Source: Sympetrum striolatum (Eukaryota > Arthropoda > Insecta > Odonata > Libellulidae). From it: a stretch of 64,000 nt of DNA. The stretch lies in the NCBI GenBank assembly GCA_947579665.1, contig OX388345.1, positions 61,681,454-61,745,453 on the forward strand, read 5' to 3'. Below the pieces are notes generated by a model. The model did no database searches and was not told where the DNA came from. It was given only the letters and a program-made list of their open reading frames with translations. The translations under genes and the position numbers were made by a program. Each line of letters begins with the position of its first letter. The first letter of the stretch is position 1. Positions 12,001 through 60,569 of the stretch are shown piece after piece.

Positions 12001-15000
12001 TACCACCTTGTTTTGAAAATATAAATTAACCGTTCTTAATGTTCTTAACCTAGAATTAAATGTGATTTAATCGGATTTATAAGTATATAAAGTTAATTTT
12101 TTTACATTTTACTATTCCTGATGAAAGCAACATAGTACCAATTAGTATCAATTTCTTGTTGAAATATCGATTAATTCAATTATTAATAATGAATCACAAC
12201 TAAATCAATTTTCCCATAGTACCACTACTGAATTATAAATATCTTCCAAATTTATTTCCATATTTTAACCTGATATTGGAAACTTACATGATAATAAATA
12301 TAATACCCATAGCCTCTTTATGCAATGCACACAATTTTCCCAATAATTGCCAGAGTTTATTATGTAAGCTTATCTTGTCAAATGCAAGGGCTTGTTTAGA
12401 GTAAATGAAAAAAAATCACCAACGCGTTAAATCGATTTTCATGATATTTGATGGAATGCAATTCCCGATAGATGGATGCAAAAATAACCACTGTTAATTT
12501 TGCAAGCATTGGAATGGCAAAATTATTTCTTACTTATACTTTCCTTTTACGAGAAACTTATGATTTCTAACACACATGTCGCATCGTAAAACTCGCCATT
12601 TTTTGTTACGGGGAATCAAATTTAACCTCTCACTCATTTCCTAATAAAAGGACGCTCTCTTGTGATTACAAATGTAATAATATATCCTTCATCATCTCGA
12701 AATGTTTTCCCTGACAACGCATCGCAAAAAAACTTCCGCGTTCGGTGCGCGATCGTTAAGTGCTTCATCTCAACCGGAAGAGACGTAACAAAAAGAGCGG
12801 AAATGTAATTCGTCTGCGTGGAAGTAATGGTATCGCCAAGTCTCTCCTTTTGTCGAGGGATCGCTTATGATATCACGCTCGCTTTCATTTAGATTTCCCG
12901 TTCTGCAGTGTGTAGCGGGCAGAAATCGTGGAAATTGAGCATCGTGTGGTGACCACCATGTGGTATTCAAATTCAATTTTAATGACCGCGGCGTAACCTT
13001 AATGAGGGGTGCTGAAGACCCCTAAATTGGACAAAGGTTCGACTTGCTCGCAATTATGATTCGGACTAACTGACCCTTCATTTTCAAAATATCCCGATGA
13101 TTTTATCTTCTCGGGCTTCCCGTCTTTTATCAACCATTCTCAGTGCTTAAAAGCCCATAGTGAAAAGTTATTTCCGAGTCGAAAAAATGCCATTATCATC
13201 GGTGCTATGATGGTAATGCTCCCCTATGATAGGTTATTCTGAATTAAAATTCATTTATTCAGTGTAAATTACTTGAACTCTTCAAACTGATACATCTGAA
13301 ACTTCCTCCAAACCACGTAAGACAGGGATGGACAATGTGACTTGGTGGGCCTCGAAGTTAACTTTGCCTTTCACCTGGATATCTTTTGCTCAGAAACTCA
13401 AAATTTGACTCTTCTATCATTAATTCTTACCATTGTTTCTAATGGACCTAAATTTCCAATCTATACATACGGGAAAACGTGTAAGCTGGACTTCAACAAT
13501 CACGTTAGTCTTCAAGGGTACTGGTGGTATATAATTACAAAACGGTACAGAAGTTTCTTTGATTTCATCAAATTTCTTACTATTACGAATCGAATATAAC
13601 GTTTTCTTATTTAAAAAATAAGATTTTCAATTAAATTTTCATTTTTTGGTGGTTTCCTCGATTGTGAACAACCATGTTTTGAAATTAAATTTTGCAAAAG
13701 AAATTAATCCTGCGACCTACAAATGAATTTTTCATTCACTTTAAAGGAGAACACTTTGACTCATTAGGTATCGAACCGGGGACAGTTAAGTAAAAGAACC
13801 TTCTCTTGTACAACCTTGAGTTAAGTCGCACTTTTCCTGATCTAAGATAAATTTCATTTCCTTCATTTGTACACTTAAGTAAATTTAACTTGCTTACTAT
13901 TTCCTCCAGGGAAGGCATTTAACTATCTGTAAGGTTTGAAAACTGTGCTTTTTGTGGTTCTTGAGTTTATAGCGGAGATAATAATGTTAATAATGAACGT
14001 CTTTATTTTGGCGAATTGAGAATAAAAGTGTCTTCTTCCATGTAACCCATCGTCATTTATTATAGAACCCATCATCATTAATTATAAAATTATAATTAAA
14101 TTAAAGAGAACAATATTAGAAACAAAAGAAGAATTGTGGATGTAAAAAACCTAAGAGAATCTTAGGAAAAAATGATCCACTGCAGGAGAACGCCCGCAAA
14201 AAAGAGGGGTGTGAAAAACCTGCGCAAACCTACTGATAGTAATAACTAAAAGAGAAGGAGAAAAAGAACATGACAAAATATAGAAAACACGCTACCATAA
14301 TTACTTGTATGCGATGCATAGATAAGAATCAGTTCATATCTCAATAAATGACAGCAATATAGATAATAACATAAAATAAACAAAAAAGAAGAAAAAGGAT
14401 ATATTACATGGATTTGCATCCATAAGGTAGAATATGAAACAAATAAATACATGTTATGAAAATATTATATCGATGTAATACATACAGTATATAGAAGTCA
14501 AAATAGGATATAACGTAGATATTCAGGTAACTCTAAATAAGGAAAAAAGAACAGATATAATAGATGCTAACTTTGATAAGAAGAAGGCACAAACACACAA
14601 AGACACACAAAATCTCTATTTTATTTATAAGATTTGGACTGCTTAAGTTCTGATTTTCTCTGCCTTGAAATCAATTTTTCTCTTAAGGAAATGCAGTTTC
14701 GAATATTTATTCTCGTATGATTGATTGTTTAATAAATTCTGAAGGAATTGATTTTTTAAGAATCACTGTTAAAAGGATCGATGATGGAGTAATAATTATT
14801 CCTCCGAATAAACCACCTCTTCCCCATTGCTCTGATATTAAAATTAATGCCACCAGCTCCGTCTATTCCTGCATGTGCTTGAGCGATCCTTCCGCTTGCA
14901 TCCCTCCTCTAGTGTGAACTTCCGCTGGCTTTAAGTGGATCTTAAATTTTTCACGACGGACGATACCTACTTCCTCTTGCCTCAGTAGCTGCAGCCCTCG

Positions 15001-18000
15001 CGTTATCCAACGATATTTCGGAGTATATAGTAAAGGCTCGAGATTATGGACCGAATCTGTTAATTCAAGTGCAAATATTTCCTTTTTGGTGAACTTTAAA
15101 CTGATTTTTATACGACACCCTGTTGAGCATCACTCCTTTGCGTTAGATAGACGGACCTCTGGGCGATTCTGTGATGCAGTTTGGAGGAAAACCCGATCAG
15201 AGTCATATCTTTCTGTTTATGTTTTACGATATTTTACCTGTTTACTTATGGCGTATACGTGGAGAACGTCCCAAAGGTGCTTAGATTACGAGCCAGAATT
15301 TACTTGCTTAAGACTCTCTCTGAAATGTGAAATGCTATAACAAATGAAGGATAAAGGAATAAAGTAAAACGCGCAAAATTTACAACGTACTTCATCCTCA
15401 TAACATGAATAAATCACAATTTTAGATACTCTACGTATGATGTGACGTCATATATATGCATCTCATATACTCTCTCAATTGCATAAATATGTGTATTAAA
15501 GGAAGTCTTAGTTAATTCAACTCTTATTAATTTAATATTATTATAATAAGATATTTTTAAGTTTTATTCTTGAATTCAAGGAAAGAAAAGTTGAATTTGA
15601 TAATTAACTAGAGCTTTAAAATCTCCAATAGAGAGAGATAAAGACGGCTATGGGAGATTTTAAACCTCTAGTTTTAATCTTGCATGTTGTTTTATTTAAT
15701 AGCCGACCTGGATACAATCTACCTCTTTAAATGTTGAATGGAATATCTCGGAAATCAATCTGTTTTATGCTATCAAGAATTTTATACCGATTGTGTTCAG
15801 TATTTAAACAGTTAATTTTCAATTACTACTTCACTGCTTCTATTTGAGACCCATTCTCTCCCAAGACCCACGACCTCCTTAGTATGCACAGAAATTGTAA
15901 GACGGTAAGCTTTATAAGAATCACAGACTTGAAACTTAAGAATAAATCGTCGTGTTATAAATTTCTATAGCTATTAATGATCACAAAATCATCAAAAAGT
16001 TAGTGTAATTGGATCATGAATACTAGGTACATTGATAGCTTCAACGTCGCCTAATGTCGGAAGAAGAGGTTTATATGAAGAACTAAACCTTTAAGCCCCT
16101 CGTTTAAGTTTAAGTTTTAAGTTTAAGCGTTATATTACTTATTCTAGGAAAATAATAAGCTATGGTCAGAATGAAATGAAACCTAATAAATTACGAAGTA
16201 GAGGATGAATTTATTTTTCTGGCCGTCAGAAATATTTACCTTACTCACAGTCAATCTATTGCGTGTGCGGATTTTAAAATTATTTATGATGACAATTTTT
16301 CCTCTCTTATAGTTATTTATTGAAAGACTTTGCAATATTATTCATTTTGGGATGATGACATCGCTTTAGCTAAAACCGCGTTACCTCAAAATAATAATAA
16401 ACGATTTTTTAAAGGCCGGGATTGAGACTCACAAGTCTCATTTTACTTCTAACATTATTTCATAAAATATAGCATTAAAAAGATTTTATGAATAGGTCAA
16501 AAAAAGAAGAATGAGAGAAACATTTCTAGGTTTCCCTACTCCATGTGTCAACCCTTAGGGGAAATTACCAGTTATGTTGCTTGGTGAGTTGGCTGGTTCT
16601 AGAAGGACCAGATGATGGCTCGTGCCACAACTTCGAATGACTTTCCCCATTAACGAAAAATTGAATTAATTTACAATAGAGGTGGATTGGCTTCAACATT
16701 TTCATAAATAGGAATCTTTCACGCGGTTATAGTTACCTGCCTCGTACATAACTCTCTCAAGAAGAGCCAGTGAATTTGAGATACGATTCCTCTTCCAGAC
16801 AAGCACGTAATTCGACCTAGGATGTAAGGGGACTTGCGAGCAATGTATCGGATTGCTAGCCTCGAACTCCCTCATCTTGAGCGAGGAAACGCCACAAATG
16901 CCGTATCGTATGTTTTAAGGAAGCTCTTGATTGGTGGAAGCTATTTTTCTGGGGAATAAAATTCTGAAAGCCAGTTTTATTTCAGAAGTGCTCGCCGGTG
17001 GACGCACATACATCTACATCTACATTAATACCCTGCAAGCCGCCTTTCGGCGTGTGGCAGGGGGTGTAAACACCAGTTGAGTCTATACTACTTCCTTATT
17101 CGGTTATTGTCACGCGGAAAGAATGAATTCGCGCGAAGAATGATTCTCTAAAACGATTCGTCCTAGCAACTATTTCTCTTAACTTACGGTCATTATCGGA
17201 TCGACCGAGGTAACAGGGGGGCTGCATGATACCGATTGTATCTTCCGAAAATGTAGTTTCCCTGAATTTATTAAGCAATCGCAGCCTAGCTTCCAATCTC
17301 CTTTCTTTCAAGGATTCCCAACCTACGTCTGAGAGCATTTTTGTAACCCTTGCTTTTTATCGTAGCATTCCTTAACAAAACGAACCCCTTTACGCTGCAC
17401 TTTCTCGAGTTCGCGAGTACACGTTTCATCCGCCGGATCCCATATACTTGCCGCATATTCCAGAAGGGGCCTGACCAAGGTAAAATAACATCGCTCTCTC
17501 ACCTTTTCATCGCATTTACCGACAATACGCTTTACAAAGCCAAGCCTTTTACTTGCTTTGCCGCAGATTTTTCTAATATGAGTGCTCCAATTTAAGTTAT
17601 TAGTAATGCTGAACCCGAGATATTCAACTTTATCTACTACTTTGATACTAATTCCATTAATTTTGTACGGGTGATTTGGACGCAATTTTTTCTTTTTGAA
17701 GAAATTAACTACGGAGCATTTACCTACGTTAATATCTAATTCCCATTTTTCGCACCACCTTTGGATGAGGACTAAATCGTTTGAGAGAGATGTCTGGTCT
17801 TCCTCGTTTGTTATTTCTCTATATATAACCGAGTCATCCGCAAATATCTTCACATTGCTAACTATCTCGTCACTCAAGTCATTGATATAAATAAGGAAAA
17901 GAAGAGGTCCAATTACACTACCTTAAGGTACGCTAGAGGTAACTTTGATTCTATTTGAGCTAACGCCATCCAGTACAACTTGTTGTTCCCTCTCGTAGAG

Positions 18001-21000
18001 AAAATCCTTAACCCAGTCGACTACTTCCTTGTTAATGCCCGCTAGTTTAAGTTTGTAAATTAGTTTGTAGTGGGGTACTCTATCGAATGCTTTTTGAAAT
18101 TTAGGAAAATAGCGTCCGCTTGCTTTTTAATTTCGGCAGACTTTAAAATATCGTGTACAAATAGAGCAAGTTGGGTTTCACATGATCGGGACTTTCGAAA
18201 ACCATGCTGGTTCACGTCGAGGAATTCATTTTTATCTAAAAATCCCATGAGTGAGCTTACGACGATATGTTCCATTACCTTTCCGGACAGCGAAGTTAAT
18301 GAAATGGGTCTATAATTTCCTGGGTCCTCCTTTAATCCGCTTTTGTAAACAGGAGTAATATAAGCTAATTTCCAATCGGATGGGACCCTACCTTCATTTA
18401 TCGATTTACAAAATATAATTTTGAGATAAGGGGCGACGCTTTCTGCCAGTTCTTTAAGCACTCTTGCTGGAATGCCTTCTGGCCCTGGCGACTTATTTGG
18501 CTTAATTTTGCGTAAGATTTTAACTATACCATCTGTCGTAAAAGTTGACATGGAATCCAGTATATTAACCTTAGGGAGGATCTCTATGTTACAATCTGAT
18601 GTGAATACGCTTTGGTAAAATTCGTTTAGGATGTTCGCTTTCCTCTTCGAATCGCAAGTAATGTTACCTTCGATATCCCTTATCGAGCTCACTGTTTGTA
18701 TCTTTCCCTGTACCTCTCTAACGTAGGACCAGAAAGCTTTAGGGTCTTCCTCTAAACATTCCCCAAGAATTTTCTTTTTAAAGTTGCTGTGGGCGTTACG
18801 CATAGTTCGCTTGGTATCGCATTTTGCTTTCTTGCGCTTTTCTAGCAATAGTGATCGTGGTGGCTTTGGAACAGGCTGATCTATTCCTGTAAAAGCCTTT
18901 ACTTTTCCGTGCAAATCTCTCTGTTTGCGGAGAGCCCTTCTAACCTCTTTATCGTACCATCTGGGCTCGCAATCATTTTTAGAGTATTTCGAAGGTATAT
19001 ACAAATCTATATATTTATGCATTATCTTCACGAATGATTTCCATGTATTCTCAGTGTTATTGTAGCTTACGGGCGACTTAAATGAATTAAAATCGGTAGG
19101 TAGTTTTCCGTTAAATTCCTCGAAGTTGGCTTTGGAATACAGATAAATTTTGCGTTTGGGTTTCTTATACTTGCTAAGGTTTATCTCAATGTCTGCAAAA
19201 ACGCCTTTGTGGTCTCTAAGACTTTCGTCAATCGAAATGTTCTGTGAAGTGAAGTGAAGTACATACATAATGAAGCCTCCGTGTTGTAAATCATTTTGTC
19301 TTATCAGGAAATTGTTTCGGTGCATTTTTGCATATAAAAGGATTCTTATATTGTTAAGCTGATGATTTATATTGCGAGTGGTAACTAACGATTCTAACTT
19401 CCGAGGATACACCTCGGTTTATTTAGTTCGCAAACGAGATGTACCACATCCGGTGATGTGCCCCAGTGGCATCTACATGAATTGTGCCTTTGAAAGTTTT
19501 GAAAAAGTATTTCGGTAGAAAGAGAGAGTGTGGTGCTGAAATCGTAAAAGTTTCGGACGAATCAAAAATGGAAGTTTCCGCGATCTATAAAGTATCTCAC
19601 CGCTTGATTCTCCTAAAAAGATTAAGATGGAACTTCAACTCCAGACCGAGAGTAAATGTAAGTTTATTGCCCTACCACTGGTTACAGATGTACGAAGTCT
19701 GTCAAATAATAGCATTAAAAATGAAAAATAGGTTTTGCATGGTACCCTTACGCAATAGATAATGATGAATCGTTTAGGTCAACAATTCTTTAGCAACCTA
19801 TTGCATACCACGCTTAGCCGCCATATTGGGTGTAATACGGTGAAATATTTTAGAAACGAAAATATTATTATATTTGCAACATTGGTGTAGTGGCAAATTT
19901 CCCAGTGTGGGAACGCTAAATATATTTGTCAAAGTATAAGGAAAATAGTATTTATATGATTTTCTAGAATGCCTACAATAGCCAAGGGCATAGAATTAGA
20001 ATGTATCTAAGCTGGCTGAATAACGCTTTGTTTTTTATACCAAATCAATATTTAGCAATAAACTAGCTTATTGTTACTGTGGAAAACCAGTGTGGGAATG
20101 CCGTTCCCACTCGTTCCCGCTCCACTACACCACTTATTTGCATCAACCGCACTCGCACATACTTCACGAAACCGATTTAAATTAATAAAACGTTTAATTA
20201 ATAACTTTCAAATATCTGCAATCCAGTTTAATAAAACTATTTGCAATTCATAACTTACGAAGAGATATCTTACATTTTTGCGTTGTAAAAGTCACTAAAG
20301 ACAATCAAAATCAATAAAATCTATTTACATTTATAACATTATAATAATAATAATAATAAAATTTAGATATTTACCGTAACCATGATCTTCTCTGTGCGGG
20401 ACTATTTGAAAAAAGAATTTCCTTGGTACTTCATTGTTGCCAGTGATCCAGTTGTTGTATAAAATTCACATGTGGGAGCCTGATGAATATCAACTATGAT
20501 TACTTGTTAATGTTTCTTTAAAGGAGAAAATAGACCTTTTAAATAATAAATATAATCACGGTTTATCTAGAATCTAACTATAATCTATCACAGACATTCA
20601 TCCTATAGGTCTAATAATATAATTTAATTATTTGCTATAACTTTTAGTATTAAAATCGTAGCTAATGTCACCGTAGGTAAACAAATTAGTTGCTATTTGA
20701 TATTTTGTAAAGAAAACAAACTTACCCGACCAAAATCAACGCATTTTGTTACCATGGAACGTGGCAAAATTGACAGTCATCATGGCGACTTAACTTATCC
20801 AAACATTTACAAGTTCGAAAGTTGTTTATCGAGGTATGGCTTGGTGTACACCACCATTGGTTTAAGCTTTTTAATTTGACCAATAAGAGAGATTTTTTCA
20901 ATATCATCTGCCAATAGCGTTGGGCTTCTTTAAAACTCGAGTAATTCTAAATAATCTCTATTTATTGTTAAAAGTAATATATTTAGAATGTTATGAAGGA

Positions 21001-30706: not shown

Positions 30707-31734
30707 TTATTTAAACCTAGTTACATACATTTTCTGAGGATATGAAAGGAAAAGGGTTTTAAATTTCATTTCAATCTTACTATATTACTCAAAAAACTCT
30801 ATTATATCTATTCAAAACTCCATGTAAATTATGTGTTCTGTTTATTTATATTTTCTAAGACAAGGTTTGAGTCTGCCTTTCATGACCTCTTGACTTGACC
30901 AGAGCAATTCATGTTCACCTTTCATGTGGAGTTTTATTGGTAATTTTTTAGCTTTCTGATTATGTGTGGAATAAATGGTAGGCTTTTTTCCATGGATAAT
31001 TCAATTGAAGTGAAAGATTTCCATGAATAACACAGTTATGAAGCAACTCCTCTCTTTTTAAAAAGAAATTCCTCATATCACATCCATATCTTGATATAGG
31101 CTACATTCTACATACTGCTGTTGTCCCGCTATGTAAGCAGTTTCAGTCATTGGAACTCATCTAATATGTAACTATTTTCTGTTTCAATAAGACACTTGCG
31201 TGTGATGAATTATCATACAGATGATAAAGAGCAAGCATATTCATTAGAGATAAAAAATATTAGTTTTTCCCCTTATAATTCCTCCTATTTCAAAAGAAAG
31301 GTTGAACTTAGTGTCTCTCCGTAAAACTTATGAGATACACATTGGATGATTCTAAAATAATGGTCATAATTTCAACCATTTGTTGCGAAAAGTGAATAGA
31401 GCAATATGGAACATGGGCAACCTAATGGTAACTTTTAAAATGAAGAAATGTATCCAAACATTCAGAAATCATTACAAATCCTTTAAATGTTTTTATGTGT
31501 GTTCAAGCAACCTTCAAAGCACGATTCAGTGGAAGGATGAAATATGACTGAGAAAACTTAAGATAAGAAATGATTTTCAATTTCTTAAATATTTTGCATA
31601 ATAACATTATAAATTACAAGTAAGATTGCTGAAAAATGTAGAGAGAGATTAAAATTGCTGAACAAATAAGAAGTGTATTAAGGTTTCATTATTAATGTTT
31701 TCTGTGTTGCTTCATCCAGGTCTCATTAATATGT

Positions 31735-32998
31735 AATCTATTATATATAGATGCTTCTCCAGATTCATTCATATATATAGCTATATATATAGGATACTAA
31801 TTCACAGGCTAAACCACAAGCGTCATTGACATTAAATTTTTGCAACGTATTAGCCAGTAGTGTAACCGCCAGAAATAATGAGATTTTGAATCTCAGTGTC
31901 ATGGGTTCGATTCCAGAGGGCCCCAAAGTCCCGATTTTTCCCCTTTAAATGTATTGCTTTGATTTTTGGGAATTTTTTTTTAGATACTTCCCAGATAGGT
32001 GGAGAATCAAAAATCTAGGAGACTATATATGTGGTCTATCAAAAACGTAAATAACTTTCACGGAAAATATCCTGGGTTTGATGCTAGGACAATGCAAATA
32101 TCTGCCCTTTAAAATACGTGGGAGAAGTTTTTCTTTATTTTTTTGATGCACTTATCAAAATGACAGGAAGTTCGTGCTTGGCCAGAAGATGTATGGTAAA
32201 AATTGGTTTTTGAAAAATATTTTCATAAGACCCTACTATTCCTGGGTTCGATGCCAGAGCACAATAACTTTTCTCTCATAAGGAATATAAGGAAAAAGTA
32301 GGACGTCGTTTGAGGCAGTTGCAGCATATAAATAATTCTGCTTGAATTTTCACACATAGTTAGAGATGGTGATCTTCTATTGTGCTGCATAGGAAGTATC
32401 ACCAGGAAGACCCCGGTTCGATGCCAGGCGGTATTTTAAATAGGAGTATTTAAAATACATTTGGGTTAATTTTTCATTATTTTTTTGATGCACTTATTGA
32501 AATGATAGGAAGTTCTTTAGGAAGTTTTCTCGGGTTTCCAACCTGAGAAAACTTCCTACAGCACCTGCACCGGGAAAGCACCAGATCCTTCCTAGGAAGT
32601 TCTTGCTTAGATAAAAGATGTATATTAAGACTCGGTTTAAGAAAAAAAAATTGATAAGACCATGCTGTTCCTGGGTTCTATACCAGAGCACATTAAAATT
32701 TCTCACATAAGGAATATAAGGAAGAAGTAGGATGTCGTTTGAGGCAGTTGCGCCTACTATTTCTGCTTGAATTTTCACACATAGTTAGAGATGGTGTTAT
32801 TCTGTTGTGCTGCGTAGTAAGTTTATCAGGAAGACCTGGTTTTGATGCCAGACGATTAAATTGCAGCGAATTTTAAGAATATTTTCAATCCTTATTTCTT
32901 TTTTAGGACTGTCCCGATATGATGCCGTTATGAAATTGGTGTAGTCGATCTGCTTGCAATATGCAAGCTACAATTTACTCGTATAGTATATATATAGT
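31735..32998 (+). repeat. Composite repeat with about 170-bp-phased Pol III B-box motifs, copy A
   Basis: The unit shares its full layout with the reverse complement of 58965-59845. B-box-like motifs (consensus GGTTCGANNCC) occur at 31904 (perfect), 32075 (9/11), 32245 (perfect), 32415 (perfect), 32674 (10/11) and about 32839 (degenerate). The first four spacings are 171, 170 and 170. The 32415-32674 spacing becomes 172 once a 77-bp insertion and its 10-bp duplication are removed. The first unit also resembles a tRNA: an A-box-like TAGCCAGTAGTG and a TGAGA/TCTCA stem with a 7-nt loop precede its B-box. Copy A has two extra units relative to copy B. The end carries a GCTTGCA-ATA-TGCAAGC hairpin. 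No long ORF is present. Confidence 0.8.
32507..32603. mobile_element. 77-bp hairpin insertion with 10-bp target duplication
   Basis: AGGAAGTTCT occurs at 32507-32516 and 32594-32603, flanking 77 bases that are absent from the matching place in the other unit of this repeat and in copy B. The insert opens with a near-perfect hairpin (AGGAAGTTTTCTC...GAGAAAACTTCCT, about 32518-32556). It ends with a 22-base word (32568-32589) found again at 38269-38290 in PAN2 intron 2 with 20 identities. It is likely a very small non-autonomous mobile element. Confidence 0.55.
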
Positions 32999-32999
32999 A

Positions 33000-34085
33000 T
33001 GCTATGCATAAGCATACATGTTGGCTACAGGAATTTTCATAGATTACTTTATTTACCTATCTTACCAAAATGATTAATTTGAAAGTAAACAGAAGACAAT
33101 GTTTACAGCAAGTTATGCCTAAATAATTAAACAATCTCTCTTGAGGTGAACAATTTGTTATTCTCTTTGGAACATCTGCTTTTTATTCATTCCTGAAGCA
33201 TAATTTTCCATATTCCTTTATCTAACTGCAATTTGTTTGCACTAACTACTCTATGTTTTGTATTTTCATGATACTCTCTACCGAATTTATCTCTTTTATA
33301 AGGGGTTGCCATGAAAATGCATATTTCTGAATAGTATTTTTATACTTCATGTGCTCTATATGACATCAGCTCTCACCTACTGCAATGTGTCAGAGAAGTA
33401 GACTTCCACCAACTAAAAGTTACCAACTATAGCGATTTCCTCAATGACAAGCACAGTACCAAAAAGATTATCTGATAAACTGAGATAAAGTATGGATAAG
33501 AAACATATTAATACTGTCAAAAATAAATTGTAAGCCCAAAAGTATGAAGAATGAAGGCCTAGGTGAAAATGCATATATCAAAATAATGTTGACAGTTCTT
33601 GATTTAAATAAATAGACTTAAATAATTATACCATTGTTAGATACACTATCTAACTAAAATTTTATGTGAATCAGACATGAGCTCCTTACTACAGTAATGC
33701 TGCATAAATAAAATATCATTTATATCTGAATCTGCATTTTCTGCACATTTTTTTTGTCAGTATAATTCACTCTAAGTAAGTAATTTGGGAACTGTCAGTG
33801 CCTTAGATGAGTGATTAATAGCCTGACTATAAGGAGCTGGCTAGCTTCCTTATTATCATTACAAATTTGAAATTTGACTATTGTATCATGAGGAAAAATT
33901 CTTTTGCCCTATCATAATTAAATATTGATTTGTATATTGTTGTAAAGGTGAGGAAAAATGCAAATTCTTATGAGTGAAACAGGGCATAACTAAATTGTAA
34001 AATATTGAGGAATGAAACTGAAGTAAAGAGCATTAGAAGAAAAGTATATAATAATAACATGAGAGTAACCATGATTCTCTACAGT
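33000..34085. other. Intergenic, no recognised content
   Basis: AT-rich sequence between repeat copy A and the LINE fragment. I see no gene, repeat boundary or strong motif. Confidence 0.5.
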
Positions 34086-37934: not shown

Positions 37935-40900
37935 CCATTATGATCCAACAGTCGCAGCAAACTCTGACGAAATTCTTTGTGAGTATAACATTAAAATGTT
38001 TTCTTAACTTGACATTGACATCTAAAGCTGATGACGTGACTGATTTGCAGTATACGATGAAGAAGGAACCCATTATGCTGGAGCAGATTTTGTTCCTGTC
38101 GCAGATCATTTCGGAGAAAACTTTGCAGAATCCGAATTTCAAGAAACTCACACTGTCCTCGCAGATGGTGGAGATAGATTTGGTGTATCAGCTGTTGCAT
38201 TTGATCTACAAGAAGAGCTTTTATGGATGGGAAATCAAGGGGTATGAGAGAACTTTATCCATAATATTCACCGGGAAAACACCAGACCCTATCTAACCTT
38301 TTGAAAGTTTTTGAAACTATTTCAGTTTTCTTTATGAAAAAGTTCCTTAGACTTTGATGCATTCAGTATCTATTAAAAGATTCTTAAATGTTTGTGAAAT
38401 ATGGTTCTTTAATTTTATACCCACTTTCTGTATTTTATAGTTACGAGTAATTAGGATTTATATATGTACCCAGGAAAAATAACATCCCTCTCAATGAGCA
38501 TACATTTGAATAATTAGTTGGGCATTTAATTGCTAAAATGTGTACATAGCTTATTGATAGATCATAAAGAAGTGATGATTAGCTTTTCTACATTGATCAT
38601 GCAACTTTGTCATTTTAATTTTAGATGGATAGTAAAGATGATCTTTCATAAAGTTTATCTTTTTCAGAATGTTTTTCTTTGCCTCTTACCTTATAGACTT
38701 GGTAAAGTACTGCTAATTTTGCTACACACATCATAATGATTAGGTAGATGGCATGCTATGTGGTTAATATGTAAACTTTATGCATGGGTCATATTCCTGT
38801 AGATAATGATTATTATTGGATCAACAATGCAATGTACCTCTGCCTATGTGTCTCAAAGAATTCATTGAACTCCGAATGTAATATGAGATGGTTTCCAATA
38901 GAAAAATCAAAAGTAGAATGTAGGTGATTAAAAATTAATCTTGTTGGTTCAACTGTACTTATAATGTGAGAATGCTAGTTAAATTAATGGTGAGTCATGA
39001 ATATAATTTATCTTTCTCTTGATACACTCACAGCCAGTATTATTTATAACTTACAAAATTTGATAGTACATTTTATTACCTAAAACTTTAAATTACCTTC
39101 ATGATGATAGTAAGCAATCAATACTGAAATGTTTCTTACAGTAGTTCATTTGCCTTCCATATGTCTTCTCTCTCACAGGGTCACCTGACATCTTATTATG
39201 GGTTAGGTATGCAGAAGTATACTTCTTTTCAAGTTCATTGCACTCAAGAAGTACGTCATATCCATCCTTTTGAAACAGGTGTACTCGCTTTAAGTCAGAC
39301 CAGCTTAAGATGTCAAATGAGACGTGGTATTCCAATATTCACTCACAGGTACGTTATTTAAAGTGAAAATATAAGAATAGTTTGTCATAAATTAGTGCAG
39401 TAGATTAAAATACTATATTTTCTCATGCGTGAAATGCACCTACACATTAGAAACAGGTAGGTAATTTGGGCTGTATTCTGCAATTACAATACCAATCGAT
39501 GCATACAGTAAATGGTAACCCTTATCCTCATTTGACATGTTCCTAGCTTTTTATACAGTATTTATTATAAAGCTTATGAGAATTTTCATATTGTACTCAT
39601 TAATATTTAATTAAATTTTGAAGCAGTTCTTTGATGAAGGTTATTATTCAAGTGAATGATATTGTGATATTCATAATATTCTGATGAGACTGTCTTAATA
39701 CTTATGTATTTTTTGTCATTATTTTAAACTCATGGTACAGTAATGAAGCTGATTATCAACAAAGTTTACTTTAAATGGCTCCAATTATGTTTATGATTCT
39801 AATTTCTCTTTTTGTCTTATCTTCAGTAATTAATAAAGCTTAAATAAAATTTTAATCTTCTTATTTATTCTTCTGTATATATTTATTTTTCTTTGAAATG
39901 TTACTTAATTTTTCAGTTCAGTTTCGATGGAAGACATGCAGTGCATGCTTCAGGTTTCACCTACTTCAATTCTCATGGGAGGACACCAGGATAAGCTTAT
40001 TGAATTTGATGTAGCCAAAGTGGCAGAGACTAATGTGGTTAGTTTTGATAATATAACCATTCTCTAAATCATATGCCATTTTTTAAAAAGGGGATCCTTT
40101 TAAACTCATGTGTACTTTTTAAAATCAAATTGTGGGAGATATGATCTTTCTTAAGGGAAGTATTTATTGTAAGGATCTGCACTTAAATCTTATGTTCATT
40201 GATACATGTGATTGTGGGTAAATCATTATGAAAGCTGAATTTTATTGTTCATGTGGTGGAAGTCTAATGCTTTGAAACTCGCAAATCTATTTACGTAGGC
40301 ATTAAAATAAAGCATTATTTGCCTTTGTGGTACGTTTTTACTTTCTTAAATTTTAATTCTTAAACTTCAGAGAAAATTTTCTATTTTTAAGCTTACGTTT
40401 AAATGAGTTTATCCACCAGCCTGTCACCTAATGTGTTACAGTTTATCAAAGTTAAAAATGTTTTCACTCCTGAAGTAAACAATTATTATAATAATTTAAA
40501 TGCCTGAATTAATCTACAAATTGAAAGGCTGTGCAATACATAGGTTCACAAACTTCAGCTACTAACACCCTTTCACCTGTCTTTAAACTCCATTTAAATA
40601 TTTAATAATTTTTCACTATGTAGAATGAAAACTAAGCTTTTTCTTTAAAAACAATAGGTTAAATTTATTTACAAATTGCTTTTGGTCAAATTAGGATGAA
40701 ATCAGGTACACATAAATATTTAAAAGATTTCCTACATTAAAATGCTATGAAAAATTGTCATCTTTTTTTCTGCATCTGGGTGATTAATGAAAAGATAATA
40801 ATACTTATAATTACACATAGAGTAATTTGATCATTCTCTCTGGGCTTTTAATTTACTTAATCATACTTTGGAGTTTACTTACACAATTACTCTTTCTAAT

Positions 40901-43900
40901 TTCAGAGAAGTGTTGGTGAAAATGGCTGTGCTATACTTCGTCAGCAAGCTGCTGGATTATGCTATATTTGTTGTGGTGATCCCACTGGAATGATTCACCT
41001 TAGAGATCCATACTCTCTTAGAGTTGAACACACCTTAGAAGCTCACACAGGGAGTTTATCAGACCTGGATGTGCATGGCAACATGCTTGTCACCTGTGGT
41101 TTTTCTAGTCGGTATGTGGAAGAAATAATCTTTGACCTCTTGCTTCCTCATAATTCTATTTATTAATTAACAGTTTTTTTCTAAAACTTCCAGAATATTT
41201 TCTTGGAATTGTAGTGGTAAATTATGAGTCTTTTCCGTGTTCCATAATATTAAACATAACTAATAACTTAAACCTATGGAAAAGTGAACATCTGTCTACC
41301 TTCATTAGAATGGATTTCCACAACATCACGGCCGCCTCCGTCGATTTTATTATTTTTAAAATATGTGTATAATAATAATAACTTAATTGTGCTCTGGGAA
41401 AGTCCCATAAGAGCAGAAAAATAATACAATATTATCTGTTCACATAAGATTATCATACAAATTATACACATAAGGTAATAGTACAAAATAAGATGATACA
41501 AAAAAGAAAAAAAGCCAGTATTATGGTTTTAGAATCATTCCGTGATAACAATAAGATAATCAAACAATTTTTCTTTAAAAGATTGTGCAGAAGTGGAATT
41601 TTTAATATGTACAGGCAGGTTGTCCCAGAAATTAGATGCAGTAATTAAGAAGGATTTTAAGCAAGTATTAGTCCGAGGGATTGGACATAAAAGATAGTAA
41701 GGGCCAGAGTGTGTAGTTTTACAAGAAATGGAATATTTAGAAGTAAACATGTCATGGATATACTGTGGTTGAAGATCGTGATAAACTGTAAATGTAAATG
41801 AACCGAGCGTGTATTTTCTTCTCGTATTTGGTCTTAACCACTTCAATTGACAGCGGTAACTGGAAATATGGACATCTTTCCGAAGGTTTAAAATTAATCG
41901 GATGCGGTTATTTAGAAGATGGAGAATTTTAAGGTCTAGCTCGGCTGTTAGGTCATCGTACACTAGGGAACAGTAGTCAAATGCTGGAAGGACGAGAGTG
42001 GAGGCTAGCATTTATGTTCAAAGTTTCCTAAATGTTATGATGTGGTAAGGGTTCACCCAGTTCTTTTGATGACACTCTGAAAAGTATTTCAAGAAAACAA
42101 GCATTTGTTGTTAATTTTAGATATTTTGTGTATAAAAAGTTCCATATTTAATTCCCTTTCAATGTTACTTATATAATGGTTTCATGAATGAAATAAATCA
42201 CTCTAATTACTTGTAGTGAGCTTATGTCCAAGTAGTAATGGTATTATTGTCTCTACTTCTGAATGAATCGTATATTTTCTCTTTCAAAAATCCTTGCACT
42301 CCCTAAAGGTCTAGTTTTTCTTGGAAATATTAATCACAGTTAACTATATTTCAGGCATGGAGTTATGTCTGTGGACCGCTTCATGATGGCATATGATCTT
42401 CGGATGATGCGTGCTTTGACACCTATAAGTTTAGCCTTAGATCCACTTCTTCTCAGATTTCTTCCATTATTCTCTTCGAGAGTTGCAATAGTTTCTGGCG
42501 TTGGACAAGTTCAATTACTAGATACTGCTGCTCTGTCTCAACCAGGAGATATTTGCATGTTTCAGGTAAATAGTAACAATTTAATTTTTATTAATATGCT
42601 TGATGAAATTATCGTAAATCTAAGATGTATACAAAACATGGCTAAGTTTAAGTAAGATATAAAATAATAGAATGTATTTGTTTACAATAGTTTACGTATT
42701 AAGTACCAAATTGCTGATTTCATAAGGCTTATAAAATTTCAAATGCTTTCATAAGTTTATATTTTGAAATTTCCTTAATTTTTTTTTGAAAGATCTTTGC
42801 TAGCATGGTTTTAGTTAAGCTAAAGAAAGATAATAGAAAGAGCTCGTTAAGGTCTCTATTTGAATTAGTAATATAGAGAATGAATTCTCTTACATTAAAT
42901 GGTGAATTCAAATAGCATTACTCCTTGCAAAAAACAAATTATAAATCTTTCTTAATAGCGTCAAAATTCCATAGATTTCATTCTACTCAGTTTAAACATT
43001 AGTATCTTTTAAATTAGGTCCATTATGTATTTTTAAATTACCGTATTTTCTGGTAGATAACCCACGTGTTATCTATACAACAAATATAGAAAAATGATAA
43101 AAATATTAGTGCGTGATATACAATGGAAAATCTAGTATAATTGAATATTGAACTCGGAAACAAATTACTAACAAATCTCACTTACAAGGGCAATTTTATT
43201 AAAACCAACATATTATAAATGTTAATGTAATTATATAATTAATTTCAAAATAAGAGTAATTATTGCAAAACATTACAGTGGTAGTAAAACATTGTCTGCA
43301 TAACACAAAGGAGGAAAGCATAAATAAGGAAACTTAAGTAATTAGTACAAGAATGACATTAAAACTTGCAAACATAAATCTTCTATCTAACTTTAATCTT
43401 TAAAGTGCTTTATGAAAAATAGTACAAATTTGAAATGCTCGTTATCAATACAAATATCACACAAAATAAATATTTGAAATGCGTGTTATCTATACACTTG
43501 TCACAGTGAAGAGATTTTTAAAATGCGTGTTATCTAGTAGGTGCGTGTTATTTACCAGAAAATACGGTAATTCTTAAGTAGATTATTTTATTTAATGTAT
43601 TAATTTATCAATCTGAGATCTATCTTTGCATGCTGCTGTTTTTACAAGGGGATTTAATTGAGGTGTATTTTTCATTTACAGGTCAACACTGCTGGGGCTA
43701 TGTGTCTTGCTTTTGATGTTTCTTCGTCTTGTCAATGCTTAGCCTTTGGAGATGCTGGGGGATCAGTTCATCTTTTCAGTGCTGGTGGTGCCCATGCATC
43801 ATTCAACTCATTTTCTCAGGAGACTGAATTTGCAGATCCAGTTGAAACTATACCTCCCATCAACATATTGGATGAAAATGTTCCGCTTTCGACTGTTCCA

Positions 43901-46900
43901 TTCCCCCTTTGTTCAACTGGCTCTCTCCTCTCAGACTGGCCTGAAAGATTTCTTAGACCAGCTTTTAGGTATGTTTGTTTTTTTTATTGTTGTACAATAA
44001 TACCACCATCTAAAAATTCCAATTCCTATCATCCTTTTTGTTTTATTTTTATTTAATCAAGATTTAAATTCAAGGATTATTAAAAATGTGTAAGAAGATA
44101 GTATCTTTATGTTACTATATAGCACTAAAAAATGCCAGTATTGGAATTTAAAATTTGTAGCAAGCAGTACAGATAAAATACACGAATATTACTAATATTT
44201 GCATGAAAATATTAGAACATAGGGTGATGTTTCAAGTATTGAAATCACTTTGTAAAGTGGAATATTGCTGTTATTCTTTTAACAAGAAAAATTCTGTCTA
44301 GATATTTAATTATTCATTCACTTTTCACTAGAAAATAACTCCATTATTCCTACATGCAATTATATCTTACCTCTGAAAATTTCCTTCACAAACTATAGTT
44401 ATGAATGAATCAGTATATCAAGGTATATCTTTATTTTTCAAGCTTTACTTTCCAACAGTGTAATACTCAGTGTATATTTTAGTGGTAGGACCTTGACATA
44501 GAAATCTTTGCCAAATCAGTCTTCCATGGAGTCTTTTTTATATTCTTACATTTACATTTTTCAAATGAAGTTTATCTCGGAGTGATATAAATGTGAATAA
44601 AAATTAATATCTTTATCTGGAAAATTAAAGAAAACTACTTGAAGCATCATGTGAAACATAGACCATATAGTTAACTTTCTCACAAATTTGCCTTAGTCTC
44701 ATCTTTCCCTACTCATTCACAGGCGAACTCCATCAATAGATCCTCAAATATTACAAAGCATGAAAATGGTTGGCACAGTTGGGTATGCTCCAAATCCTGG
44801 AAACCGAAGAAGAAATCAGGTGAAAATTATTTTGTTCGAAGCTTTAATATTTTTCGTTTTTAAAGAGTAAAAATGGAAGAAAGCAACAGCTGATATTATC
44901 CCTGAAACATTTGGCACAGCAATAGAATACAAAATAATTTCAAGACCTATTATGCGTTTCAGTTTTTTTAATCAAACATTTTAAACTAAATTGGTCAAAA
45001 GTATTTGTGAAATTTTAATTGATGGTTACAATACTTTAAAAATTATTCAAGTTAATGCAAGATAGTATTACATAAATTTTAATTTATGCAAGATAATGAT
45101 TATGTCGATGAACATTCTCTTGCAAATCTGATTTATTCATACTTTAAGGTACCATATAAGTTAGAGAAGCGTGGTAGAAATCACAAATGCTTTCCGAGTG
45201 ATCCACGTTCTGGAAAGATGGGAGATGATGGAACAACATTCTTTGCCATCCCTAGAAGGTAATTGTATAATTTTCTTCTAATCATTTGTATTAAAATAAT
45301 TCATTATAATAATATTATTTTTTATCTATACCCTCTCAAAGTTTCCTTCCCTAAACAAGTTATATCTCCATAGTAGCTAAAATCCATGCTTGATCATCTG
45401 TATGATTATGATAATATTCAGACCCAAAAATGATTATTGTTGTTACTCTTCAGGAATAAGTCAATATCCTGACAAAAGATATTTTTTCAAGTATGATAAT
45501 ACACACTGTAAAATAATTTACGATTATTTTTAGAAATGAATATTTACTTATCTTTGTTTAGATACCGCAAAATTGATGTGAAGTACTCTAAAATGGGAGC
45601 TGATGATTTTGATTTTGATCTTTACAATCGAACTGGTTTCTGTGGTCTTGAGGCCACCTTGCCTAATTCATATTGCAATCCAATGCTACAGGTATGTGAA
45701 GCAGAATTTCCAATATTATTTCATCTAATGCTTGTTATTATGTAACCTCTTCTTACATTCTTAATATTTCATACACTATCAGATCCTTGATTTGTTTTTC
45801 ATCATTCTGCATATTTCTAATTTCTTGTGTCAGATATTCCTATTTAAATATAATACAGTATTTTATCACTGCTCAGTTAATGTTTTCTTTTATAATATTA
45901 GTTAAGGTGAAAGAAGCTCACTTCTGAGCTCATTAAGATTTATTGATTGATTTTTTGTTTTAAATTTTATACTATGATAGATTATCAAAATTAAATCTTA
46001 ATAAGTTATTCAAAAAGCCTTGATTTTTTTTTAAATTCTACATCCTTTTCTTCTTATAAAGTGAATCAATTATCTACTATCATGTTTTCTGAATATTAAC
46101 TATTAACCTTGTATCATTTGCAGATACTTCACTACATGGATCCAGTCCGTTCAGTACTTTTGTCTCATCTTTGCCAAAAAGAGTTTTGTTTATCCTGCGA
46201 GCTTGGTTTCCTATTTCATATGTTAGATATCTCTCATGGATTTCCTTGTCAAGCTAGTAATTTTCTAAGGGCATTCAGAACTATTCCAGAGGCTTCTGCA
46301 TTGGGTTTAATTCTTTCCGATCAGAATGATTCCAAAAAGAAGACAGATCTGATTCGTCTGATTCAGGTATTTTTTATTCCAATTCATCCTGATATAAAAT
46401 AAGAAATTTTGTAGTTAATGCCTGTTATAAATTGTTTTTGCTTTCTCAAATAGTGAGCAAGGAAATATTTTTGACAGATGTTGTGATAACACGTACAGAA
46501 ATTTTTTCTTGGTGAGAAGTATGTTTTATGTTTTCCTATTTCTGCTTTGGTCCTGTGTAACAATCGTAATATTGGTATTCAAATTAGCTTATTTTATTTA
46601 GGTTTTCTTGCATGCAATACTAACCCTTCATTTGTATTCAGAAGACAAAGTATGCAAAATTCATTGCTCTAAGTTTTACCTCTGCTTTTATTACCTTTCT
46701 GAAGATATGTGGGTCACAAGTTTAGCATCTACAACAGTATACTATCAGTATTAGACAAAAATAGTCAAATTAGGAGCTCATTCACCTGGTGATGTGGTGG
46801 CAAGAACCATCCTCATTTTTGTAATGTTTTAAAAAAGTTACAAGCAATTAAACTTTTTTTTGAATTTGTACCCCAGGGTACGGTTCTTGGGTTAAGTACA

Positions 46901-52900: not shown

Positions 52901-55900
52901 CATGCTTCATGAAAAATTACATACCTTTAATGAAGGACTGAAAAAAAAGAGGATTAATAAGTTATAAGGCCTCTATAAGTACCCAAAATTGTTGGTAAAG
53001 CTGGTCAAGAAATGAGATTTTTAAGAAGTGATTGTTCTTGTTAAAACTTGACAATCTTGTGTTCGAAAGAATGAGCAGACATTAATATTAAGGAAAAGTA
53101 ATATAAAAAAATTTGGAAACCCCTATTCAAGTATAGCAAATGAACTACATCCATCAAAATTGATCATTCATTGTCAACGTGTTTGGAACTGAAGAATACC
53201 ATGATGAGAATATGATGTAACTTGTATTATTACAACATTATGGTGTAATAGAAGTTATTTTAATGTTATTTCCTTTATTTCTTTTCAATCATGTTGTTAA
53301 TGCAAACTCATTCTTTCAGGTGACATTGTTGCTATGGATGCTGAATTTGTCACATTAAATCAAGAGGAGGCTGAACTTCGAAGTGATGGGAAAATGTCTA
53401 CGATAAAACCATCACATATGTCTGTTGCACGAATAACATGTATTAGAGGGTAAATATTTTTTAGAACTTTATGATTCATTAAGATTTATTTTCATAATAA
53501 GATTATACTAAATTTATTTTCTCTATGACTATGACCAGCCAAGGGCCTATGGAGGGAACTCCTTTTATTGATGATTACATATCAACGCAAGAGCAAGTAG
53601 TCGACTACAAGACAAAATTCTCAGGGATCAAACCAGGAGATTTGGATGCTAACTTCAGTTCTAAGCATCTGACAACTTTGAAATCTACGTACCAAAAACT
53701 ACGTTTCTTGGTTGACAATGGAGTTAAGTTTGTTGGGCACGGGCTTAAGAATGACTTCAGGTTAGTTCTAGTAAATTATTTTCATTAATCTCAACTAAAG
53801 AGTTAATATTTAGAATGTTATAAATTTGATAGTTTGGGGATATTGATACTTCCTTACATTAATATTTTATTTTATGCTTCAAGAAGTCATGTATTTATTT
53901 TTCCAAAGTTATTCAATTACACCTTGTTATACTTTCATGAAATTATTTCAGTCACATCAGAAATGTTGAAAATAATTTATTGTAAGACTTACTGCATACC
54001 TTACACATTAACACCTTTGCAGTACACTTATAGTTATTCATCGAGCATTGCTCCCATTATTCTTTTCAGAGTCATCAATTTGGTAGTGCCAGCAGAACAG
54101 GTTATAGATACAGTTCTTCTTTTCCATCTCCCACATCATAGAATGGTATCTCTTCGATTTTTAGCTTGGCATTTCTTAGGTAAGGTCTATTTCTTTTTGT
54201 TAACATATACAGTTTTTCTGATTTATTAATGTGTATGCCCAAATAGCCGTAGAAATTCTACATTCATTTCTTGTATGATTTTTTATTGATTTATAATAAA
54301 TTATGTTCACCATATTGCAGTGATGATTTTGGCCTAAATCTATTTTATTTAGAGGATTTTAATGGATTAATATTTTAATTTGTCGCACATCTACATCTAT
54401 AGATTCATTATTCTGATATTTCAGATTGTCTGCTAAGGATCACTTAAATTACTAACTTATCTTGGTCAGATTTTATTCTTACTCGGACATTATATACAGT
54501 TGACTCAGAAACTAACAAAAATTCTCAAACAACTGGGATTTTTCCATGGCATGCCCATGAAAATAAAAGGAGGAGCATGCCAATTGGTTAGAGCACCAAA
54601 ATGAAATGCTTCTGTTAAATACTGTATTTGCTTGAAAGTAATGCACCCTGAAATGTAATGTGCACTACAAAATTAGAGCGTGGAAATTGAAAAATAATTT
54701 GCCTGCAACTGCAATACGCTCCTTAAGACATGCAGTCACACTATTTGCAGCACTGTATATATGTTTGCTATGCACTTATAAGATTCTACATATGTATATT
54801 TATATGCTTGTTCGCTGTAAACAAAATGCCGGTTGTCGTAAAATCCAATGCATTAACCAATTCAAAATCGGTCATTTAAAAAGTTTGATGGACAGGCCAA
54901 TTCCCTTTCAATTAAAAGCTGTCAGCTGACAGTCAATTCTATACTCTTTGAGGGCTCTGTCTAAAAATTGATAGAGCATTTGTGCAACGTTTGAGTTATG
55001 TAGAACCAGGGTGAGCCAAGGATTTGGCCAGCTGTGCACTACGGGACATGTGATCTAGTAGTATAGTGCCCAAATCTAGTGCATTATTAATTGTAATGCA
55101 TATCCCAATTTCTGAGCCAAAAACAGACCCAAGAAGGTGTGCATTATTTTTGAGTAAATATGTTATTCAAAACTACAAGCTTAAATAAAGTGCAATGATG
55201 AGGAATTTAATAGTGAATATGCATATTAAATATATCTCAAATTGAAGATGTAAGTTCTTGTAAATTCCCTGACTAGCAAAGATCCAAATTATGGATTTTA
55301 TATTACTTGGTTTAGATACTAACCTCTACACCAATGATTATTGCATTATTGAGTAATTTGTTTATCAGATGACAAAAGTATTATTAGAAATAGATATATA
55401 CTCGTATGGTGTTATGTATTCCCATATCTTGATTCACCTTATTAAGACATTAATATGATTCTATCTTCATTTAGTTGATATACTTCCATTTTCAGGTTGG
55501 CTGGTTATTTTTAATTTTCTGCTATCGTGATGGTTTGATTATTATGCCTCAATTAGCTCCCTGCTCCCTAAAATTCAGTTAAAGGTTTCTATTTCCTTAA
55601 GATTTGTTTTAGGATTGTGCTTGATTGCTGTTTATTAATAAATTTGTTCTCTTTAATCATTATGTCATTTTATTAGTTTCTACATTATGGTTCAGTCAGG
55701 GCAGGTAAGACTATCGTTTACTCTCAGAATTTCCTTAATAGATCCTTGGCAATGGATAAAGGGGCAATGTAAATTTATCTGGCACCTCTCATATGAAGCA
55801 CTAAGTATTAGTCTTCATTTTGCTAAATTGTCAGTTCTACAATCAGAAAAGGTAATAATTTTTACATGTAAAGCACTCTCTTCCCTTTTTCATTGTTTTC

Positions 55901-58149: not shown

Positions 58150-58964
58150 TATTACTTTGTCATCGGCGGTATACCTTTATCAAAATAAAATTTGTAGAAA
58201 TTGAAATTCTGTTTTAGTTCAACAATGGCTAACTTTTTTTAGCTCATATTCTTTCATAAATGGTGCTGCCTGAATGACCATAAAATATTTTGCTGGCTGT
58301 TATTTTTTCTATGAGAATTAAATTATTACAATGTGAAAATAAGTATTCACATTCAAAAATGAATTTCATCCTGATTATCTTTCATTTGTTAGGGATTACA
58401 ATTATGGCATTATTGTTTTAATAAATCAAAATCTTTTTAGTTACAATTAAGGTTATATTCTTCCTATGTGTATCTAAGTTATAACTGTAAAATAATTTTT
58501 AATCTGCAGTACTTTAGGATTAATTGCTAAATTTATCTTGACAATTTCATAAACTAATAAGTGAGTTGAACCGCTACTGCCAACAATTCTTTTTGTATTC
58601 TAGTCTTTTCATTTGGTATGTTTTTCCTGCTTATGATGGGAATCACCCTCGATATTGCTACCAATATTCGATACTGAGAAATAACACTGACATTGCTATT
58701 AAGCAGTTACACATATGCATGTTTTCACTACTTTATTACTAATTTATCCATGATCTTAAGCTGCCTGTTGTATCCAAGATTTTAGTTATATATCCAAGGG
58801 TGATACCTAGAAAGTCTTACAACTTCAGAAAATTGAGACTGTAATGATATCTCTTTTCTAACAATTATCAGAATACTAATAAATTTTAGTAAATTATTTT
58901 TACCCCTTTATTGTTATATTATATACTGGGTTCATACATTTCTCATCATGTTGCCATGGCTATA

Positions 58965-59845
58965 CTTATAATATATACAAGTAAAACTGTGCTTGCATAC
59001 TGCAAGCATATTGATAATACAAATAAGTCGTCATCATATCGAGAGGGTCATCAAAAGAAAAAATAAGGATTGAAGATATTCCTAAAATTTGCTGCAATGT
59101 ATCCGTCCGGCATCGAACCCGGGTTTTCCTGGTGATACTTACTATGCAGTACAACAAAAGATCACCATCTCTAGCTGTGTGTGAAAATTCAAGCTGTGGT
59201 ATTTGCTGCAAATGCCTCAAACGACTTCCTACTTTTCACATATATTCCTTATGTGAGATATTGTAATGTGCTCTGGCATTGAACCCAGGAACAGCATGGT
59301 CTCATATAAATTTTTTTCTTAAATGGATTCTTAATATACATCTTCTAGCGGAGCAATAACTTCCTATCATTTCTATAAGTGTATAAAATAAATAATGAAA
59401 AACTACCTCAATGTATTTTAAAGGGCTGATTTTTGCACCATCCTAGTATCGAACCCAGGATTTTTTCCATAAAGGTCATTTATGTTTTCGATAGATCATG
59501 ACCTTATATATAATCTCCTTGAGTTTTGATTCTCTACCTTTTCGGGAAGTATTTTTTTCCCCGAAAATCAAAGCAATGCTTTTAAAGGGGAAAAATTGGG
59601 ACTTTAGTGCCCTCTGGAATCGAACCCATGACACTGAGGTTCAAAATCGCAATTTTTCTGGCCATTACACGTTATGGCCAATACGTCGTAAAAATTTCAA
59701 ATCAACTATGCTTGTGGTTTAGCCTGTGAATTAGTATCCTATCTATCTAATAATAATAATAATTTTTATTAATCCAAAGACAATACAGTAAGTATGTCTA
59801 TATCCTTAAATGAATCCGGAGAAGGAATTATATATAATAGATATA
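58965..59845 (-). repeat. Composite repeat with about 170-bp-phased Pol III B-box motifs, copy B (inverted)
   Basis: The reverse complement matches copy A (31735-32998) over its whole length. B-box motifs read on the minus strand lie at 59616-59626 (GGTTCGATTCC, perfect), 59445-59455 (GGTTCGATACT), 59275-59285 (GGTTCAATGCC) and 59109-59119 (GGTTCGATGCC, perfect). Spacings are 171, 170 and 166. Both copies end with the same GCTTGCA-(A/G)TA-TGCAAGC hairpin. Copy B carries an (AAT)n run and about 45 bases near its right end (59748-59800) that are missing or altered in copy A. No coding capacity is seen. Confidence 0.8.
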
Positions 59846-60569
59846 TATTATACTTATTATATAATATTATCAAATGCTCAGGCACAATTTTGTAGTAGGG
59901 CACCTAAAAGTGAATAATGAAATATTATCATGGTAATAACACTACCACTTACTTAGTTGTTTGTAAAGAGATTCTTTTTCATTCTTTTGAAGATTGCCAG
60001 ATAGAGAATTAAGGCTCTATTCCACACCAAAACAAAAAATATTTCACTGAAGTTTGGCTGCAACAAAAGAGACAAAGGGAGTTATTTCCTGTAATATAAA
60101 TAATGCAATGTTAGATTTACTTTTTCGTGAATAATTTATTTGCCTTGATTACAATCTATTGCTCCTACTATCATCACAAAATTTACAGGATGGTTATTAT
60201 ATTAAACTGGAATCTATAGTTTTTAAAATCTTACTAAATCGACTTAAAAATATCACATTATTAGATATTTGAATCGAAGATATTCTGTGTTTACTATTTC
60301 CCAAGAGTATTAAATGCATTAAATTTTATGAAATACTATCCCTGCCATTTAATGTACATCATAATGTTCTATTGAATCGTGATTTGAGAAAAATATAGCA
60401 TTCATTTAAAATAAAGCTCCCAAGTGCATTATTTTATGCCATATTCGTATATTTTAATAAAACCTCAGTGCAGTGTAGTCAAGAGTATGTGTTGAACATA
60501 AACTGAATATTAATAAGTAGTAGTAGAACTAAAACTAAGATACAAAGGCAAAAGAGAAAACTTCTAGAT
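59846..60569. other. Intergenic, no recognised content
   Basis: AT-rich sequence between repeat copy B and the hAT-like MITE. No gene or repeat is supported. Confidence 0.5.

Follow-up and report, generated by a model that had tools for sequence, protein, structure and literature searches.

Related repeats and TFIIIC-bound elements

The SINE-derived satellites (sSat) of scaled reptiles combine a tRNA-derived head, tandem units of box B plus body and a fuller end unit, and short arrays at dispersed loci occur among them (excerpts of PMC10702118). Each unit of the snake satellite sSat3 covers the 3' portion of the SINE head, where box B lies, together with some of the body; unit length is 67 nt in snake and 143 and 151 nt in gecko, and the snake units are recognisable by their sequence. 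Tandem repeats with tRNA-like parts from newt, Xenopus and frog are also catalogued in that source. TFIIIC binding without Pol III was measured at the CeRep3 repeats of C. elegans, dispersed tRNA-like repeats whose extra-TFIIIC sites hold the Pol III promoter boxes Box-A and Box-B (excerpts of PMC6950938). The IR boundary elements of fission yeast carry B-boxes in an inverted-pair repeat, and TFIIIC-bound B-boxes are reported to flank the mating-type inverted repeats (excerpts of PMC2908685, citing Noma 2006). Mouse B2 SINEs act as boundaries, with TFIIIC discussed as one possible cause (excerpts of PMC8136502). The Cg_HINE/pearl elements (Cg170/BIV160) are dispersed and non-autonomous, with few 160-170-bp repeats and a palindrome near the right end (excerpts of PMC7492417 and PMC5139131). 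The oyster Cg_HINEs typically hold short arrays of 140-180-bp repeats, mostly of five monomers or fewer, which differ by 8.5-21% within a cluster (excerpts of PMC7492417).

The repeat analysed here shares features with each of these systems. The snake SINE-derived satellite is the closest published anatomy found: our repeat has a comparable head, box-B units and fuller end unit, and forms short arrays at dispersed loci. Its units are ~170 bp long and alike in 17 bp only, and unlike snake sSat it has conserved sequence ahead of the head. Compared with CeRep3, only its first unit has both boxes, and any TFIIIC binding would be putative; like the fission yeast elements, it carries its B-boxes in an inverted pair. 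It resembles Cg_HINE/pearl in dispersal, repeat number and length and right-end palindrome, and differs in its tRNA-like head, in far more diverged units and in having no subterminal inverted repeat common to both copies. In the literature searched, which included papers in excerpt, no repeat was reported with B-boxes as the sole conserved part of 170-bp units. Our reading of the locus, at a probability of roughly 0.6, is that an old tRNA-derived (SINE-like) repeat, dispersed and non-coding, underwent tandem multiplication of its box-B part.

Two inverted copies and a tRNA-like head

The sample consists of two copies, A and B, from one window (the whole stretch of 64,000 nt that was analysed).

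31735-32986, + strand: repeat copy A, six-motif form; core 31794-32986, blastn likeness 31666-33006, ends uncertain in AT-rich DNA
58972-59736, - strand: core of repeat copy B, four-motif form; blastn likeness 58955-59860
42365-44056, + strand: two PAN2 exons, at 42.4 and 43.7 kb, with PDB and Pfam matches
53501-53788, + strand: third PAN2 exon, read by eye

The sequence-only reading had placed a motif array in a dispersed repeat with an inverted copy at 59.0-59.8 kb, and both copies and their coordinates were correct. Copies A and B are 75-80% identical (blastn within the window); over the orthologous aligned parts, excluding the second unit-3 copy of A, 136 of 754 sites differ (~18%). The copies flank the PAN2 exons and face in opposite directions, an orientation that may be due to chance. 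Elsewhere in the window, a broken non-LTR-like retrotransposon lies at 17323-19412 (- strand), where two ORFs hold fragments of a reverse transcriptase (Pfam RVT_1, slightly below the cut-off for the second one). An ORF at 62057-62440 (+ strand), which in our reading resembles the start of TYW1, gave no Pfam or PDB match.

The B-box motifs of the two copies were compared with GGTTCGANNCC.

31904-31914, + strand: copy A motif 1, exact, in the tRNA-like head
32075-32085, + strand: copy A B-box-like motif 2, GGTTTGATGCT, 2 mismatches
32245-32255, + strand: copy A motif 3, exact
32415-32425, + strand: copy A motif 4, exact, at the junction of a two-unit duplication
32674-32684, + strand: copy A B-box-like motif 5, GGTTCTATACC, 1 mismatch, duplicate of motif 3
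32839-32849, + strand: copy A B-box-like motif 6, GTTTTGATGCC, 2 mismatches, orthologous to copy B motif 4
59616-59626, - strand: copy B motif 1, exact, tRNA-like head decayed
59445-59455, - strand: copy B motif 2, 1 mismatch
59275-59285, - strand: copy B motif 3, 1 mismatch
59109-59119, - strand: copy B motif 4, exact

The six motifs of copy A thus comprise three exact matches, one with one mismatch and two with two mismatches, and the four of copy B two exact matches and two with one mismatch. With at most one mismatch, the window holds 11 matches to GGTTCGANNCC, against a mean of 3.9 and a maximum of 9 in 100 dinucleotide shuffles, of which 0/100 reached 11. Eight of these matches belong to the motifs of the repeat (31904, 32245, 32415 and 32674; on the minus strand 59626, 59455, 59285 and 59119). 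The other three are not array motifs: 32533 lies in an insert in copy A, and 13767 and 53624 lie outside both copies. Beyond the two copies there is no excess of the motif, with just 13767-13777 and 53624-53634, both on the minus strand; the latter falls within the stretch read by eye as a PAN2 exon. At 13739-13777 (- strand), GGTTCGATACC is followed by CTCCTTTAAA, an order akin to that of repeat units 1 and 2. This site has 3 mismatches to a joint pattern that was drawn up after the site was seen, and it may be a distant relative of the repeat.

The CG is lost in 4 of 10 boxes (32075, 32674, 32839 and 59285). An intact GGTTCGAT is retained in at least one copy for each of the four unit ranks, so the ancestor probably had four GGTTCGAT boxes.

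A tRNA-like head surrounds the first motif, a feature that the sequence-only reading did not include.

31858-31914, + strand: tRNA-like head, unit 1 of copy A (A-box 31858-31869, anticodon arm 31879-31895, variable loop 31896-31900, B-box 31904-31914)
31935-31939, + strand: TTTTT, a Pol III terminator-like run, 31 bases beyond the start of B-box 1, in both copies
31789-31821, + strand (copy A) and 59710-59742, - strand (copy B): 33-bp block upstream of the tRNA-like head, 100% identical between the copies

In copy A the head has the A-box TAGTGTAACCGC; an anticodon stem of five pairs then encloses TTTTGAA, with TTG at the anticodon position, and a variable loop of five bases leads to the T arm. 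It was scored on A-box, anticodon arm, variable loop and the loop bases before each box. For copy A unit 1, 0/2000 random windows of the same DNA reached the score, an optimistic figure, as the score was written after seeing unit 1. The head of copy B unit 1 has decayed and was matched by 242/2000 random windows. All eight later units were random-like (at least 1332/2000 windows did as well), and the motifs after the first stand without A-box or anticodon-arm context.

Rfam at the curated (gathering) threshold reported neither a tRNA nor any other family in the window, which speaks against a hammerhead retrozyme or another Rfam RNA, and in a permissive search (E up to 10) no tRNA in copy A or copy B. 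ARAGORN found no tRNA with default settings; relaxed settings called tRNA-Gln(ttg) in the copy B head, amid many doubtful calls, and did not call the copy A head so. The 29-base head block had no exact match in IMG/VR or GTDB genome contigs. Pairs of GGTTCGATNCC at 152-165-bp gaps were found in at least 120 stretches in IMG/VR, which we assume to be phage tRNA clusters.

As in a SINE-derived satellite, unit 1 has both A and B boxes and the later units box B only. The repeat does not start at or just before the head, as a tRNA-derived SINE would. A plain SINE would lack conserved sequence ahead of its head, and here conserved sequence starts ~69 bp before the A-box (31789 or earlier), which counts against a plain SINE.

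The right end of the repeat and possible target-site duplications were examined in both copies.

32952-32968, + strand: palindrome GCTTGCAATATGCAAGC close to the right end of copy A; its copy B counterpart has a single central change
58961-58975 (right, TATATTATAAGTATA) and 59849-59863 (left, TATATAATAAGTATA), - strand: candidate target-site duplication of copy B, 14/15 match, AT-rich, chance possible

Inverted and direct repeats were sought between the ends of each copy, and copy A gave no clear target-site duplication. The palindrome near the right (3') end (GCTTGCANTATGCAAGC), kept in both copies, would fit a HINE of the pearl type (a non-autonomous Helentron) whose centre holds a short array of ~170-bp repeats, and in which the likeness to a B-box is incidental or captured. 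The short arrays of the oyster elements point the same way, as do an AT-rich microsatellite-like stretch ahead of the array and a 17-nt inverted pair near the ends of copy A (31781-31797/32981-32997, 88% complementary). However, copy B lacks a counterpart of this TA-rich pair; units at near-chance likeness are far from the 8.5-21% divergence of Cg_HINE monomers, and the tRNA-like head is left unexplained. Kinship with BIV160/pearl was considered because primers printed in PMC5139131 resembled, on visual inspection, the flank of the box and unit 3; in eight comparisons their match was equalled by between 13 and 156 of 300 shuffles, and in 7/8 the primers were no better than shuffles at the 5% level (best 13/300). 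We consider a Helentron origin improbable and retain the tRNA-derived repeat as the preferred reading.

Unit bodies, spacing and gains in copy A

Ten units were aligned on the box, and 37 pairs of unlike rank were compared. Identity was 0.84 at positions 0 to +9. Away from the box, ungapped identity was 0.22-0.41 per 10-base bin, with ~0.28 expected from composition. Units of unlike rank have in common a stretch of ~17 bp, CCTGGGTTCGATNCCAG. A mild rise to 0.32-0.41 at +20 to +69 results at least partly from the grouping of the 32415 unit as unit 4, since its body is unit-2-like. In local alignments of bodies only, scored against shuffles, units 1 and 2 gave z of 2.1-2.5 in three of four pairings and 0.5 in the fourth; units 2 and 3 gave 2.75 in one of four pairings and less than 0.5 in the others. 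No likeness emerged for the remaining body pairs of unlike rank, all with z below 2, against 19.6 for the orthologous control pair. A second word, CCTTTAAA, is common to units 1 and 2, at 38 and 31 bases past the box. Except in the two-unit duplication of copy A, the bodies are near chance, and the units are not alike along their length as those of a SINE-derived satellite would be.

The units share CC(T)GGG before and CCAG after the B-box, which goes beyond the B-box consensus and points to common descent. For units 3 and 4 the tandem origin would rest on motif and spacing, because their bodies lack likeness. The near absence of body likeness would also be expected if unrelated pieces with T-arm remnants had been joined, with near-equal spacing through chance or recombination at the motif, and copy A indicates that exchange does occur at the motif. 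Against such an assembly stand the shared motif flanks and the spacing, which is constant to within 5 bp (p = 0.0007 under random placement of the three gaps). We regard assembly as highly improbable, and prefer tandem multiplication within a tRNA-derived repeat; tandem duplication alone would give even spacing.

The spacings of the sequence-only reading, 171/170/170 in copy A and 171/170/166 in copy B, were recovered with the same values, and its description of widely diverged bodies with B-box and spacing kept agrees with the identities given above. Unit 1 is 171 bp in both copies despite two 6-bp indels that cancel out, and unit 2 is 170 bp in both. A scan of copy B for a 17-mer repeated four times returned the motif as best, at 42/51 matches, which 0/200 shuffles equalled. 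The value of 42 was reached by 4/150 other 765-bp windows, at two short-tandem-repeat sites (9.6 and 43.4 kb), and none of these four had a motif GC of 0.4 or more or even spacing.

We then modelled three units diverging neutrally, at an indel rate of 9 gaps per 136 substitutions taken from the comparison of A and B. Gaps within 5 bp of each other, as in copy B, arose in 28% of runs at 0.5 substitutions/site and in 5-7% at 2-3 substitutions/site, the divergence that fits chance-level bodies. The tighter match of copy A, whose first three gaps agree to within 1 bp, arose in 3.1% down to 0.4% of runs. The model leans, at a borderline level, towards a spacing constraint, as judged from few indels (9 gaps) and two related copies.

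With four units, copy B is the simpler form. The unit order of copy A is 1-2-3-4/2-3-4; its sequence is unit-4-like until ~32437 and unit-2-like from ~32449, so that unit 4 is joined to unit 2 in register just beyond the motif. Such an in-register switch just past the box is what unequal exchange at a shared motif would give. A second change in copy A is an insert.

32518-32592, + strand: insert of 75 bp, flanked by 12-bp direct repeats TAGGAAGTTCTT at 32506 and 32593; whole feature 32506-32604

An insertion of 77 bp and its duplication had been proposed to restore the spacing of the later motifs. This holds, and the size is close: we measured 75 bp plus the 12-bp repeat. After subtraction of these 87 bp, the step from 32415 to 32674 is 172, and the final step is 165. 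A hairpin at 32512-32564 (25-nt arms, 88% complementary) is partly formed by the insert; a sub-threshold Rfam match to mir-255 corresponds to this hairpin and was rejected. The insert region at 32544-32594 resembles 38245-38295, within an ORF (blastn, 74.5% over 51 bases, E 4e-4).

Box conservation and possible roles of the array

We compared boxes and bodies between copies A and B. At positions 0 to +12, 8/65 box sites differ (12%) vs. 140/745 body sites (19%, p = 0.24). At -4 to +12, the counts are 9/85 and 138/729 (p = 0.07). With CpG columns dropped, the latter comparison gave 4/73 vs. 122/689 (p = 0.005), with a filter chosen post hoc, after several changes had been seen at the box CG, and with copy B unit 3 counted twice. 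Scored in 16-base sliding windows, the four boxes show 16, 14, 15 and 12 identities; 4%, 37%, 16% and 79% of windows, respectively, do at least as well. The longest identical run between the copies (33 bases) contains no B-box; the second longest (30 bases) includes box 1. For a special status of the boxes since dispersal the evidence is slight. It is stronger for the time before dispersal, in the source lineage, given that each of the four ranks kept its box and almost nothing else is left; this argument assumes that the units descend from one another.

These data bear on the proposal that the array is a TFIIIC platform on a mobile element, in which B-box-only motifs at nucleosome-like spacing would recruit TFIIIC but not Pol III and serve as boundary or extra-TFIIIC sites, and selection on the source element or on its insertions would have kept boxes and spacing. 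Retention of the motif in all four ranks amid near-chance bodies, the lower box divergence once CpG columns are dropped, the equal lengths of units 1 and 2 in both copies and the rarity of such even gaps in the neutral model (0.4-3.1% of runs for gaps within 1 bp, 5-7% within 5 bp) would all agree with it, and the TFIIIC-bound repeats of C. elegans and fission yeast make such a role plausible in kind. Several of these points have a counterpart: the excess conservation of the boxes is not significant with CpG kept, the CG is gone from four of the ten boxes, other blocks such as the 33-base box-free run are equally well conserved, the indel model is based on nine gaps, and constant spacing already follows from tandem duplication. 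A putative TFIIIC-platform or chromatin-boundary role is thus possible and weakly supported. It could hold together with our preferred reading; as the main account of the locus we consider it unlikely. A more specific version, a transposable boundary with a tRNA-like promoter and terminator followed by a B-box-only row at one-nucleosome steps, its boxes and spacing kept by selection and its two copies forming an inverted pair around the PAN2 exons, appears doubtful to a greater degree.

The tRNA-derived repeat with tandem box-B units remains the best explanation. The anatomy agrees with the first alternative offered by the sequence-only reading, a non-autonomous element with a satellite-like core. 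The head would be a type 2 Pol III promoter of tRNA-like build (A-box, anticodon arm, B-box) with T5 directly behind it, perhaps from a tRNA-Gln(TTG)-like ancestor. Its box-B part and adjoining sequence would have been multiplied in tandem at ~170 bp to give four ancestral units, whose bodies then diverged to near chance while the 17-bp T-arm/B-box stretch was retained in the source lineage; dispersal may have been SINE-like. In copy A, an in-register unequal exchange at the motif would later have added two units, and the 75-bp insert was also acquired. Box 1 could drive a Pol III transcript of ~100 nt ending at T5, a run that would be expected to end such a transcript early, and the downstream boxes, without A-boxes, could bind TFIIIC with no initiation.

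Known tandem repeats that arose from the box-B part of a SINE have units recognisable by sequence, whereas here only the TFIIIC-binding motif and its spacing survive in otherwise unlike units. If this pattern holds genome-wide, it would be direct sequence evidence that extra B-boxes serve the element that carries them or the host, and the array function of TFIIIC sites could be tested in a natural setting.
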